43,901 nt of DNA, taken from the NCBI RefSeq assembly GCF_003946275.1, contig NZ_RHNQ01000014.1, positions 1 to 43,901 on the forward strand. Direction: 5' to 3'. The position numbers and the translations under genes were made by a program. The DNA comes from Loigolactobacillus backii (GTDB lineage: Bacteria; Bacillota; Bacilli; Lactobacillales; Lactobacillaceae). How positions within the stretch are numbered: the stretch's first letter is position 1; every line of letters starts with the position of its first letter. Shown piece after piece: positions 71 through 42,769 of the stretch. The notes beneath the pieces were generated by a model. It searched no databases and was not told the origin of the DNA. It saw only the letters and a program-made list of their open reading frames with translations.

Positions 71-104
71 AAAAAAACGAGGCTAGGACTTTTGTCCTAG
101 CCTC
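71..104 (-). terminator. Rho-independent terminator of the nucleoside phosphorylase gene
   Basis: A perfect 11-bp stem (79-89 with 94-104) with a 4-base loop is followed on the minus strand by seven T. It lies 37 bp past the stop codon at 142. Its GGAC-TTTT-GTCC core is the same as the end of the dispersed intergenic repeat described elsewhere in this window, so it may derive from that repeat. Confidence 0.9.
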
Positions 105-1529: not shown

Positions 1530-1568
1530 ATAAAGCTAGCGTGGTAAGTAGAACGGGCAATGGTATCG

Positions 1569-1738
1569 GAGTGGGACAAAAGTCGGTTTTGAGTTTACTG
1601 CGTAACGTAGGCTAATTCAATAACCGCTCTATGATTATTGAATTAGCTGTAGTTAGGCATGTGAACCCAGACTTTTGGCGCACGTTCTAGAGTAATGCTC
1701 GGAAATAACTAGGGGTTAGGATCTTTGACCCAACCTCA
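1569..1738 (+). repeat. Dispersed intergenic repeat, family A, copy 1
   Basis: It starts with GAGTGGGACAAAAGTC, passes through a TTTACTGCGTAACGTAGG block, a 14-bp hairpin (1610-1648) and a CGTGAACCCAGACTTTTGGC block, and ends with a weakened copy of the GGACTTTTGTCCC end. The same order of blocks occurs in the copy at 4672-4838. There is no reading frame of merit inside it. Confidence 0.85.
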
Positions 1739-2212
1739 ATGGTATTCCCAAGTTTAGATCGTGTTTGGAAAATACCTTATTAGTGTTTACCTGACCAATT
1801 TAGTGTAAACGTGTTGGGAAAAGCAGCTTCCTGCGGTGACCGAGACGAACTTAGTCGAGGAAATACAGTTATGGACTTTATAACTGTGTTCCTTGTTTTT
1901 GCCACAAGAATAGACAACATTCGTAGCATCATGAGTTATTTGCGCTTTTTGCAAATAACTAACCGTAATTGCGAAGTAGTAGTTGAATGGACAACGGATG
2001 AAGCATCAAAATTATTAGCGTTTTGGGCTAATAATCCTCAATTGCGGAATAGTAGCTACAACAGCCAAATCACCTTTTTCAAAGGTGATTCGTCTGTTTA
2101 GGCTGCGACTCGGACTTCGGTTTATCCTAGATCGACATCGTTAGTAATCCTTAATCTAAGTCATGCTTGGAAAGTGCTTTTACTTTTCTTTGCCTGACTA
2201 ATCTATGGAAAC
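1739..2212. repeat. Gene-free degenerate palindromic region
   Basis: There is no credible gene here; the longest frame, ending at 2101, has no ribosome binding site and is built from repeat sequence. A GTGTTTGGAAAATACC block (1761) and a GTGTTGGGAAAAGCAG block (about 1811) are followed by a TTCCTGCGG motif. The same series returns in degenerate form at 2163-2240. A 52-bp segment at 2053-2104 is repeated exactly at 2240-2291 and carries a perfect 10-bp hairpin (AATCACCTTT/AAAGGTGATT). Confidence 0.6.
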
Positions 2213-2323
2213 GTGTTTGGAAAAGCAGATTCCTGCGGTTAGCTACAACAGCCAAATCACCTTTTTCAAAGGTGATTCGTCTGTTTAGGCTAATCCTCAG
2301 AATCTAATCGCTTTTCCAAACAC
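2213..2323. repeat. Palindromic element, family B
   Basis: GTGTTTGGAAAAGC (2213-2226) is matched by its exact reverse complement (2310-2323). AGATT/AATCT and GGTTAGC/GGCTAATC extend the pairing inward around the 52-bp repeat copy at 2240-2291. The whole folds as a branched hairpin of about 110 nt. It ends 5 bp from the stop codon of the small minus-strand gene at 2328. Confidence 0.7.
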
Positions 2324-2327
2324 TCTG

Positions 2328-4660: not shown

Positions 4661-4671
4661 TTACTTTAAGG

Positions 4672-4838
4672 GAGTGGGACAAAAGTCCTTTTTGGATTTA
4701 CTGCGTAACGTAGGCTAATCGAATAACCATAGTACGGTTATTTGATTAGCCGTAGTTAGGCACGTGAACCCAGACTTTTGGCGCACGTTCTAGGGTAATG
4801 TTCAGAAACAATGAGAGGCCAGGACTTTTGTCCCAGCT
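4672..4838 (+). repeat. Dispersed intergenic repeat, family A, copy 2 (best preserved)
   Basis: The two ends are perfect 13-bp inverted repeats, GGGACAAAAGTCC at about 4677 and GGACTTTTGTCCC near 4830. The centre is a 16-bp hairpin (4713-4728 with 4736-4751, one G-T pair). The 3' end, followed by TTTTTG, can form an imperfect terminator for cfa. Confidence 0.9.
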
Positions 4839-4902
4839 TCTTTTTGTTTGCATTAAAATATCATCATATTTTAATTTTCTCATTTTTAATCTAAAATAGC
4901 TA

Positions 4903-4937: not shown

Positions 4938-5241
4938 ATATTAGAAATAGATGAGATATAAATAGACATTGATGAGGAAAAGTAATTGATTGTCGTTGAG
5001 TCAGCGAGTTTCGTTAGGTGCAAGGAAACATCACGACAATTTTTGAAAATCACCTTGGAGTTATGACGCGAAGCTTAAAGTAACCGTCATTGGTAGCAAC
5101 CATTATTTTGCTAGCGTATCGAATAATTCTGATTATTATTCCGTACGTGATGAGTTATGTTATGTGAGTAACATAAAAATTTGGGTGGTAACGCGATTAA
5201 TCGTCCCGTAAAGTAGATTTTCTACTTTGCGGGATTTTTTT
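4938..5241 (+). ncRNA. T-box riboswitch, best-fit specifier AUC (Ile)
   Basis: The T-box core GGGTGGTAACGCG (5183-5195) is followed by a strong terminator (stem 5204-5216 with 5222-5234, then six or more T). Stem I can be drawn: GAGG (4974-4977) pairs with CCTT (5053-5056), and ATTGTCGT (4989-4996) pairs with ACGACAAT (5033-5040). The loop between them has AGTA (4981-4984) facing GAAA (5045-5048). The triplet after GAAA is AUC (5049-5051), followed by the usual purine, which argues for isoleucine tRNA. AAU read directly after GAA is the less likely alternative. When uncharged tRNA binds, antitermination should turn on the downstream gene. Confidence 0.93.
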
Positions 5242-5349: not shown

Positions 5350-6150
5350 ATGTCAGAAAAGAATGTACTTGCTACAAAGAACGCCACTGAAGAAGAAGTT
5401 GCTAATGATCTGTACCAAGCCTTGGTGACCAAACGGCCATTAACTGCAACTGACTACGAGGAAAAAGTTGCTAATTTTGATACTGCCTATCGTGTTCAAC
5501 GTGCTTTTACCGAACTTAAAAATGAAGCTGTTGGCGGCTATAAAGTCAGCCTAACCTCCGAAGAAACCCAAAAAATGTTTGACTCTGATTCACCATTTTA
5601 TGGCGCTGAAACAACCAGTGCCTGGCTCAAAAATTACGCGACAGTTAAACTCAGTGATTTAATGGATCCCCTACTTGAAGTTGAAATGGTCTTCACCGCA
5701 AAAGAAGCACTTTTAGCAACGGATTCATTGGCCGAACTGCTCAGCAAAGTTGAGGTCTCGGCCGGCGTTGAGCTGCCTGACTCACGGTTCAAAGATTGGT
5801 TCCCTAGCCTTTCGAAATACTTAGTTGTTGCCGATGGTGCCGTTGGTGGCCGGGTAGTTTACACAAAACCAACGACTGCCAAGGTTGCCGTTAACGACTT
5901 GGCCGGTGTTGATTGCACCTTATCCCTTGACGGAAAACAACTCGGCACTGGTAAATCCTCTGAGGTTCTCGGAAATCCGCTCAACTCATTACAATGGCTA
6001 GTTAAAAAATTAGCCGAACAAGGTGTTGACTACCCTAAAGGTACTAAAGTTTCCAGTGGCACTTTCCTTCTCCCACCACATTTACAAACGGGCCATTACG
6101 TTGCACACTTCAGCAAATATTTTGAAGATGTTGAATTAGACGTTAAATAA
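5350..6150 (+). CDS. 2-keto-4-pentenoate hydratase/FAH-fold family enzyme
   Basis: This 266-residue protein has the FAH-type fold of MhpD-like 2-hydroxypenta-2,4-dienoate hydratases and 4-oxalocrotonate decarboxylases. The divalent-metal ligands of that family appear as E110 and E112 in LLEVEM and E141 in AGVELPDSR. GGYKVSLTS (62-70) fits the conserved lysine segment. GAGGAG sits 8 nt before the ATG. It is the only gene behind the T-box, so its expression should rise when the cognate amino acid (probably Ile) runs short. No other aromatic meta-cleavage gene is present, so the true substrate is probably not an aromatic degradation product. It could be a keto acid connected with branched-chain amino acids, which is inference. 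Confidence 0.8.
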   Translation: MSEKNVLATKNATEEEVANDLYQALVTKRPLTATDYEEKVANFDTAYRVQRAFTELKNEAVGGYKVSLTSEETQKMFDSDSPFYGAETTSAWLKNYATVKLSDLMDPLLEVEMVFTAKEALLATDSLAELLSKVEVSAGVELPDSRFKDWFPSLSKYLVVADGAVGGRVVYTKPTTAKVAVNDLAGVDCTLSLDGKQLGTGKSSEVLGNPLNSLQWLVKKLAEQGVDYPKGTKVSSGTFLLPPHLQTGHYVAHFSKYFEDVELDVK

Positions 6151-13714: not shown

Positions 13715-13746
13715 AAAAAAAGAAGCCCAGAAAAGTCTGAGCTTCT
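13715..13746 (-). terminator. Terminator of the mannitol operon
   Basis: An 11-bp stem (13721-13731 with 13736-13746, one G-T pair) is followed on the minus strand by a T run. It is formed by the terminal part of family A repeat copy 3, so the repeat serves as the operon terminator. Confidence 0.85.
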
Positions 13747-13882
13747 TACTATTTCCGATCATTATTCTAGAACGTGCGCCAAAAACCTGGATTCACGTGC
13801 CTAACGGGAGTGTTTGGAAAAGCGCCCAGGTTCCTGTGCTTAGTTACGCAATAAACCCAAAACCGACTTTTGTTCCACTTCC
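13721..13882 (-). repeat. Dispersed intergenic repeat, family A, copy 3 (core replaced)
   Basis: Minus orientation. Outer blocks (AAGTGGAACAAAAGTCGG, TTGCGTAAC, GTTAGGCACGTGAA, TTTTGGCGCACGTTCTAGA) match the other copies. The central hairpin is replaced by a segment containing GTGTTTGGAAAAGC on the plus strand (about 13809), which is the end sequence of family B. Confidence 0.85.
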
Positions 13883-28609: not shown

Positions 28610-28623
28610 TGATAGTTGTTTGC

Positions 28624-28703
28624 GCTGGGACAAAAGCCCTTGCCTCTTATTGTTTCCGATCATTATTCTAACGTGCGCACGACCGACGTTTGTCCCACTT
28701 CCG
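28624..28703 (-). repeat. Dispersed intergenic repeat, family A, copy 4 (internal deletion)
   Basis: Minus orientation. GGAAGTGGGACAAACGTCGG is followed directly by GCGCACGTT and the AATAATGATCGGAAACAATA to GGGCTTTTGTCCC end, so the central hairpin block is missing. It lies between two convergent genes. Confidence 0.8.
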
Positions 28704-28721
28704 GCCATTTTCTTAAAATTT

Positions 28722-29962: not shown

Positions 29963-30055
29963 CTCCCTTTTTATGCCTGTTATTTTTAGACTGTATTTTT
30001 AAATTAGTCTCCTAAATTACGTTTAATTCTGGATGCTAAGGCCGCTTTATTGAGG

Positions 30056-30203
30056 TGAGGCTGGAGCAAAAGTCCTAGCCGCTTACTATTTCCGCGCATT
30101 ACTCTAGAACATGCACCAAAAGTCGGGGTTCACGTGCCTAACGGAAGTGCGATTAGATTAGCTTACGTCACACAGTAAACTCAAAAACTGACTTTTCACC
30201 TCT
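30056..30203 (-). repeat. Dispersed intergenic repeat, family A, copy 5 (partial core)
   Basis: Minus orientation. The TTTACTGTGTGACGTAAGCTAATC, GTTAGGCACGTGAA and TTTTGGTGCATGTTCTAGAG blocks match the other copies, but the 3' arm of the central hairpin is lost. It lies between divergent genes. Confidence 0.8.
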
Positions 30204-30240
30204 TGTTTAGCCCTACAATTATTGTCCTATTGCTTATAAA

Positions 30241-42722: not shown

Positions 42723-42769
42723 ACTGGGACAAAAATTCTAGCCTCTTATTGTTTCCAAACACTCCCTAG
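42723..42769 (-). repeat. Dispersed intergenic repeat, family A, fragment 6
   Basis: Only the 3' end remains: GGAAACAATAAGAGGCTAGAA to TTTGTCCCAG on the minus strand, joined to GGGAGTGTTTGGAAAC, which resembles the family B end. It touches the stop of the NlpC/P60 gene. Confidence 0.7.

Follow-up and report, generated by a model that had tools for sequence, protein, structure and literature searches.

A family of folded repeats lies dispersed between the genes of Loigolactobacillus backii, and we consider it likely to be a MITE of the EFAR/Efa-1 kind that is spread over the Lactobacillales, uses an IS1182-type transposase in trans and inserts at DNA hairpins. We analysed the family in one stretch of 43,901 nucleotides (the window), in the source genome to which this stretch belongs (G000; 2.57 Mb in 143 contigs), in its close relative Loigolactobacillus iwatensis (G004) and across the order. 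The features of a MITE were observed directly: IS1182-like ends, a non-coding body, and filled and empty alleles of one and the same site.

An earlier note on this DNA had listed six copies or fragments of the repeat in the window. All six places are real, as their E-values, which range from 3e-54 (copy 2) to 1.7e-5 (the fragment at 42723-42769), exclude chance. The ends that it had quoted are exact in copy 2 only; the 3′ end of copy 1 is mutated and the fragment at 42723-42769 has the 3′ end only. The copies and their parts, together with a copy of a second subfamily and a weak candidate that are both additional to the earlier note, are the following.

1567..1742, + strand: copy 1, complete element, with a 9-bp flanking direct repeat CAATGGTAT
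4670..4845, + strand: copy 2, complete element, in sense and 10 bp 3′ of a cyclopropane-fatty-acid-synthase-like gene
4674..4786, + strand: long imperfect hairpin of copy 2, with similar inverted motifs, GTGGGACAAAAGTC / GACTTTTGGCGCAC, as feet; fold z -8.3; covariation
4713..4751, + strand: central (apical) hairpin of copy 2, with the inverted tip AACCATAGTACGGTT
4815..4845, + strand: 3′ terminator-like hairpin and T-run of copy 2, GAGGCCAGGAC TTTT GTCCCAGCTTC
13717..13882, - strand: variant copy, the centre replaced, apparently by a second-subfamily remnant (..GCTTTTCCAAACACTCCC..)
30052..30207, - strand: variant copy with a shortened centre (model borders 30052-30206)
28617..28707, - strand: deletion form of 91 nt that has lost most of the long hairpin (model borders)
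42723..42769, - strand: 3′-end fragment, made of the linker tail and the terminator hairpin (E 1.7e-5)
2171..2327, - strand: second-subfamily copy (model R2, 104.8 bits), in a composite repeat block at about 1754-2327
71..104, + strand: possible 34-nt fragment of the 3′ tail, weak (22.7 bits, E 6e-4)

Copy 1 is full length in G000, and its orthologue in L. iwatensis is a 126-nt form in which 50 nt of the centre are missing. The window copies at 13717 and 30052 contain sequence that looks like remnants of composites of the two subfamilies. Pieces of the composite block at 1754-2327 match dozens of L. iwatensis places, which are scattered. Just after copy 2 and before an ORF at 5350-6150 there is a T-box leader (4960-5211; 108.6 bits with Rfam); Pfam gave no family for this ORF.

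The complete element is about 176 nt long and has three parts: an imperfect hairpin of 113 nt, then a linker, and last a hairpin resembling an intrinsic terminator. It starts at the 5′ end with GGGAGTGGGACAAAAGTC, the linker reads GTTCTAGAGTAATG.TCGGAAACAATAA, and the terminator-like hairpin, GAGGCYAGGACTTTTGTCCCAGCCTC, is often directly followed by T's. Similar motifs of a terminal-repeat-like kind, GAG..TGGGACAAAAGTC, stand at the feet of the long hairpin and at the far 3′ end. Most full copies measure 163-179 nt, and no gene lies within the element. The RNA fold predicted for copy 2 has an energy of -79.3 kcal/mol (z -8.3), which none of 200 shuffled sequences equalled. Folds and cross-genus covariation agree on two adjacent, independent stem-loops. 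No Rfam family scored above its gathering threshold on the repeats, either in the window or, at E-values up to 0.1, in nine loci.

We then placed 46 hits, from the window and from stretches of G000, relative to open reading frames of at least 100 amino acids, which a simple caller had picked longest first. None of the hits overlapped a kept reading frame by more than 40 bp, which upholds the earlier statement that copies occur only between genes. The neighbouring gene on the 5′ side was in sense with the element in 36 of the 46 hits (34 of 43 after three split copies were merged); 19 hits were convergent, 17 tandem in sense, 7 tandem in antisense and 3 divergent. In 30 of the 36 hits with a sense neighbour, that gene ends within 100 bp of the element. 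As sense genes end just 5′ of it, the element commonly makes up the 3′ end of a transcript, for which its own 3′ hairpin, judged by its sequence, could act as the terminator.

In a search of the genus with model R1, at least 74 distinct places were found in G000 and at least 76 in L. iwatensis, all scoring at least 82 bits, and the six other members of the genus had 21, 3, 3, 0, 0 and 0 matches. The matches themselves numbered at least 150 in either of the two genomes, a figure that may count antisense matches to one and the same palindromic copy. The three members with no match at E<=0.001 were G001, G003 and G006; the family was therefore either expanded or lost within a single genus. Among named genomes, the conserved 21-mer was found only in L. 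iwatensis JCM 18838 (24 stretches), in a search from which records of the own genome were possibly excluded. The same architecture was recovered by R1 in 73 of 301 Lactobacillaceae genomes and 22 of 40 genera (E<=0.001), and by model R2, built from 29 sequences, in 102 of 395 Lactobacillales genomes, 34 of 81 genera and six families (E<=1e-5), the own genome being counted in both cases. A single genome of another family had up to 36 R2 matches at E<=1e-6. In a sample of the phylum (398 genomes, E<=1e-6), none of the 397 genomes besides our own had a match; two other Lactobacillales were among the 21 genomes listed.

Relatives of the element were also present in plasmid and phage records, where Enterococcus accounted for 107 of 117 matching records in one search and 61 of 72 in another, and Lactiplantibacillus, Lactococcus and Aerococcus records and two Listeria phage records also carried them. 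Searches of plasmids, phages and IMG/VR with a window copy or the conserved 21-mer gave no match. Several queries taken from other families matched plasmids or phages, and two did not. An Enterococcaceae copy (query H24) matched nine places in E. faecalis NZ_CP143580, at best with 80.4% identity over 70% of its length; R2 gave a full-length match of 48.8 bits in this record, the only one in the 100 kb scanned out of 747 kb. NZ_CP143580.1 is labelled as an E. faecalis plasmid, but its gene content, with lysS, ftsH, mfd and an operon for ribosomal proteins, makes it look like a mislabelled part of a chromosome. OL539428.1, labelled as an E. coli plasmid, and NZ_CP151545.1, labelled as a P. aeruginosa plasmid, both match an Enterococcus-type copy. 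The match in OL539428.1 adjoins genes annotated as efrA and efrB, and we take it to be probably Enterococcus contamination.

Sites of G000 and L. iwatensis were compared for copies of at least 120 nt with flanks that could be placed; for 42 places in G000 and 29 in L. iwatensis no partner was assigned. We dropped five shorter G000 fragments that had been classed as below 70 nt in L. iwatensis, since this cut-off says little about short fragments. Of 18 long G000 sites, L. iwatensis had 6 empty, 2 of different length and 10 shared, and as the comparison had no outgroup these counts do not separate gains from losses. In the reverse direction, 4 of 11 long L. iwatensis copies had an empty site in G000 (one of them with a 54-nt tail) and 7 were shared.

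Three of the sites (C89, C52 and C67:56626) had been picked for their flanks. At C67:56626 the insertion is clean and accompanied by a duplication of 12 bp. Here CATTTAAAAAAA stands twice in the filled allele and once in the empty one, where a strong terminator-like hairpin follows it immediately. A hairpin with a perfect outer stem of 24 bp makes up the empty allele of C89:12787, and in the filled allele of G000 the lower stem is kept on both sides while the top of the hairpin is replaced by the element. At C55:11782, L. iwatensis has a terminator hairpin at the place of the G000 element. The remaining empty sites are less clear: C52 has an element-like hairpin, C67:49161 has about 30 nt and no strong hairpin, and the flanks of C56:42877 are diverged. 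Replacement of a stem-loop is clear at C89:12787 and C55:11782, but not at C67:56626, with its clean duplication, or at C67:49161.

Of 58 copies, 13 were flanked by inverted repeats of at least 7 bp, with 5.85 expected (reached in 5 of 2000 permutations), and those of at least 10 bp flanked 3, with 0.17 expected (0 of 2000); a neighbouring copy is involved in two of the 13 (L017 and L078), and L078 is also among the three longer ones. Direct repeats of at least 9 bp occurred twice (0.16 expected; 15 of 2000 permutations), and those of 6 or 7 bp were not enriched (7 bp: 3 of 58, with 2.4 expected). We therefore rejected target duplication as a general rule, as it was clean at one site only and 7-bp repeats are not enriched.

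The earlier note had named a non-autonomous mobile element and a mobile terminator as competing explanations, and had suggested looking for empty sites and target duplications. The former was supported by the presence/absence sites, by one clean target duplication and by the replacement of hairpins and terminators. The latter is also supported, as terminators were replaced at some sites and the 3′ end of the element appears, from its sequence, to be built like an intrinsic terminator. Empty sites were indeed found in the relative, at 6 of 18 places, but the 12-bp duplication remained the only clean one.

Besides full copies, there are forms of about 78-165 nt that have lost the centre, and several of their junctions lie, by eye, at short microhomologies between the arms. 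Among 40 G000 copies, 5 have the central hairpin tip inverted en bloc, 30 have it forward and 5 neither; by a simple string test, AAAA is the terminator loop of 5 copies and TTTT that of 20, the others being unassigned. We regard the tip inversions and the AAAA loops as signs of hairpin events at the DNA level. The inverted tips further suggest that paired changes can also arise from DNA hairpins or template switching. At C55:28727-28904, L147:9285-9406 and L139:4956-5098, a complement of the linker extends the stem of the 3′ hairpin into the flank, which reads as if it had been copied back from a folded 3′ end.

A second subfamily was recognised from a copy in locus L154, whose alignment to an element from a different genus scores 121 (the maximum in 200 shuffles was 42). 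Sequence of this subfamily lies inside the first one at one identical junction in four L. iwatensis loci (L092, L093, L096 and L099). Because the nesting junction is the same at all four, the composites appear to travel as units.

Selection on the fold was examined in a cross-genus alignment (A4) of 29 sequences and 56 pairs, made of 27 of 28 search hits (the short form L169 was left out), the window copy and L012. The stems were set by hand on this alignment because RNAalifold performed poorly on the within-genome alignment, and each sequence is the best model hit of its genome, a choice that favours intact pairs. Standard pairs filled 90.5% of the cells, compared with 71.5% after shuffling and 35-47% when the partners were slid; a double change was present in 46 of the 56 pairs, and the covariation score was 0.523 as against 0.175. 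We also used a tree-preserving null, in which the changes of each column are placed randomly on the FastTree tree. The mean G was 21.3, as against 4.7 in 200 such nulls (the highest being 6.4), and 35 of the 56 pairs had p<0.05, 19 of them at the floor. The outcome that the earlier note would have taken as a refutation, covariation no greater than phylogeny predicts together with borders that the copies do not share, did not occur: the covariation far exceeds the null.

One-sided transitions tell selection on a single strand from selection on both, since a G-T pair holds on one strand but reads A-C on its complement. In the long hairpin, the counts across genera were 55 wobble and 7 A-C (p 2e-10), and the terminator hairpin of the same sequences, which served as an internal control, had 15 and 20. 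When the window row and L012, both from Loigolactobacillus, were removed, the long hairpin still gave 53 versus 7 (rare variants, 14 versus 4). For the within-genome alignment (A1), 43 rows were reduced to 40 by dropping L032 (minus strand), L038 and L046. In these 40 G000 copies the long hairpin had 84 wobble and 74 A-C (p 0.47), and variants present in at most 2 copies had 24 and 22. The single stems, however, differed: stem 2 had 41 versus 18 (rare variants, 6 versus 6), stem 4 had 7 versus 0 and stem 5 had 21 versus 37.

The one-sided counts in G000 are near what no selection would give. As the within-genome changes look strand-neutral overall, selection on the fold seems to act less on every single copy than on the lineage that propagates. 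In our reading, a single strand is under selection in this lineage over the long term, and settled copies drift almost neutrally. The two paired changes that had been pointed out between copies 1 and 2 (T-A to C-G and C-G to G-T) are present in the sequence. Selection on the fold, which had been deduced from them, is strongly supported across genera, but these two copies alone do not show it, given the strand neutrality within G000. Wobble and A-C counts, compared once among lineages and once inside a genome, are a simple means of separating a fold that is needed for moving from a fold by which each copy is functional.

The same data bear on two other explanations. The repeats might be a functional structured RNA, a 3′-UTR or a small RNA, with copies kept for their action, for example termination plus processing or mRNA stabilisation, and with mobility incidental. 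The very strong conserved fold with its covariation, the bias of wobble pairs to the sense strand across genera, the within-genome lean to wobble in stems 2 and 4, and the frequent position just after genes in sense would all be expected of such an RNA. We nevertheless consider it quite unlikely, because the whole long hairpin is strand-neutral within the genome, among rare variants too, stem 5 leans the opposite way and the lean of stem 2 vanishes among its rare variants. Many copies are moreover centre-deleted or composite, a third of the compared sites are empty in the close relative, and there is no Rfam family. An element of chromosome architecture, like BIMEs or gyrase sites, that acts as a DNA cruciform would likewise be intergenic, dispersed and present in both orientations. 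A cruciform uses both strands and thus predicts equal numbers of wobble and A-C, which is contrary to the cross-genus counts of the long hairpin; and copy numbers from 0 to at least 74 places within one genus also speak against it. We regard this last explanation as extremely improbable.

We return to the mobile-element reading and to the machinery that might move it. Both IS1272, of the IS1182 family, and TnSha1, which carries IS1272, are reported to insert into hairpins and to remove part or all of the stem-loop, and five of seven TnSha1 sites are described as confirmed terminators (PMC5678879, PMC4923244). The ends of ISSau3 of S. aureus, another member of the family, are GAGGCTGGGACATAAATC / GAGGCTGGGACATTAAGT, close to the element ends GAGAGTGGGACAAAAGTC / GAGGCTGGGACAAAAGTC. 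In 9 of 12 IS1182-family loci, the 5′ end matched at 13 or more of 18 positions, which 6.7% of 5000 random placements did; five loci matched at 15 or more (2.2% of random placements), and six matched at 12 or more at both ends (2.7%). These windows were set after the ISSau3 match was known, and the 12 loci amount to fewer independent cases since some are close relatives (L275/L280 and L273/L282).

An E. faecium IS has GGACCTGGGACAAAAA at both ends and one from Ligilactobacillus salivarius has GAGGATGGGAAAAAACT at both ends; GAGGCTGGGAAAAAACTC is found at the 5′ end of a Limosilactobacillus oris IS and also at the terminator end of element copy L228 in genome G486. Three of the 12 loci (L271 and L272, both of the ISEfa7 type, and L281) had no matching ends. 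Among 13 other IS in two of the plasmids, only one scored 13 or more, and it adjoins a copy of the element. The element is thus probably moved by IS1182-type transposases, as far as its terminal sequences tell.

No IS1182-type transposase was detected in about 500 kb of distinct G000 sequence (ten queries) or in the window (two queries), and the L. iwatensis loci, 491 kb if overlaps are counted, had none either. With the window, the G000 search covered about 544 kb of distinct sequence, roughly a fifth of the genome, and contigs below 3 kb, where a collapsed IS would lie, were masked as N. A search of the loci for pairs of the terminal motifs gave 15 pairs around long ORFs, none of which looked like a transposase by eye over the first 60 residues. 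As the G000 and L. iwatensis sequence searched had no such transposase and short contigs were masked, we infer the mobiliser. In the open-access literature, outside which most subscription journals fall, we found no paper linking EFAR-type repeats to IS1182 or naming a mobiliser for them.

A MITE of the same kind could instead be moved by other machinery, either a single-strand transposase of the IS200/IS605 or RAYT type or template switching between hairpins, in which case the likeness to IS1182 would be convergent. A single-stranded DNA intermediate would suit the cross-genus excess of wobble over A-C; the inverted tips and the AAAA loops show DNA hairpin events, and the IS1182 partner is missing from the sequence searched in G000 and L. 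iwatensis. However, several diverged IS1182 elements have the terminal motifs at both of their ends and correctly oriented, and hairpin replacement is the behaviour reported for IS1272 (PMC5678879, PMC4923244). We therefore give this alternative a minor share of our confidence.

For the preferred reading, movement by an IS1182-type transposase, we propose the following course of events. A transposase supplied in trans would recognise the ends of the element and insert it at DNA hairpins, which would often be terminators. Insertion would usually remove the target hairpin and sometimes duplicate about 12 bp. The 3′ hairpin of the element would then end transcription of the upstream gene, and we suggest that insertions are tolerated because of this. 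The fold would be kept by selection in the lineage that is still moving, and the fate of settled copies would be drift, a deletion that takes out the centre, or service as a target of further insertions.

A wider version of this proposal is that a single ancient MITE superfamily spread through the Lactobacillales by structure-guided replacement of terminators, in which an IS1182-type transposase would read DNA hairpins and put the terminator of the element in place of that of the host. Single-strand selection would maintain the fold for as long as the element is moving, and no longer. The Loigolactobacillus repeats and EFAR/Efa-1 would then be lineage versions of one system, whose subfamilies integrate into one another and spread in composite form. 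We hold this version tentatively, with slightly less than even confidence. If the preferred reading is right, a selfish element is the source of the terminator at many operon ends of lactic acid bacteria, and the IS1182 link provides a testable mechanism for EFAR-class repeats.

Several known systems resemble the element in part. The REP/BIME repeats with RAYT are palindromic, dispersed, non-autonomous and mostly downstream of genes; REPs are of 20-40 bp with GTAG or CGTC tags, whereas the element is about 176 nt and has longer terminal motifs (PMC3733652). Membership in REP/RAYT, which a 20-40 bp palindrome with a GTAG/CGTC tag would indicate, was rejected on the size and ends of the element. 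BOX, RUP and SPRITE of Streptococcus pneumoniae are likewise small, folded and intergenic, and SPRITE is terminator-like and lies after genes; they have other ends and are reported to be nearly absent from streptococci other than S. mitis (PMC3049150). The IS1182 family (IS1272, ISSau3 and IS1182) shares with the element the form of the terminal repeats, GAGGCTGGGACA.AA in several members, but the element is non-coding. Replacement of stem-loops by IS1272 is reported to occur without target duplication, whereas at least one copy of the element has a 12-bp duplication (PMC5678879, PMC4923244).

By description, the element is like EFAR/Efa-1 in its size (about 163-170 nt), in its two adjacent stem-loops and in having a homologous multicopy element in E. 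faecalis. According to Venditti et al. 2007, EFAR is reportedly modular and integrates into stem-loops of 24-37 bp with partial loss of the stem-loop. To our knowledge, EFAR/Efa-1 has been described only in enterococci. Efa-1 of E. faecalis has 163 nt and 65 copies, is of the intergenic type and folds into a pair of adjacent stem-loops (PMC2267715), and EFAR is listed among enterococcal MITEs (PMC3733652). The present analysis differs from these descriptions in the order-wide range, the cross-genus test of the fold, which found selection on one strand across genera, and the match of the ends to IS1182; the empty sites between close relatives of a lactobacillus and the nested second subfamily are further additions.
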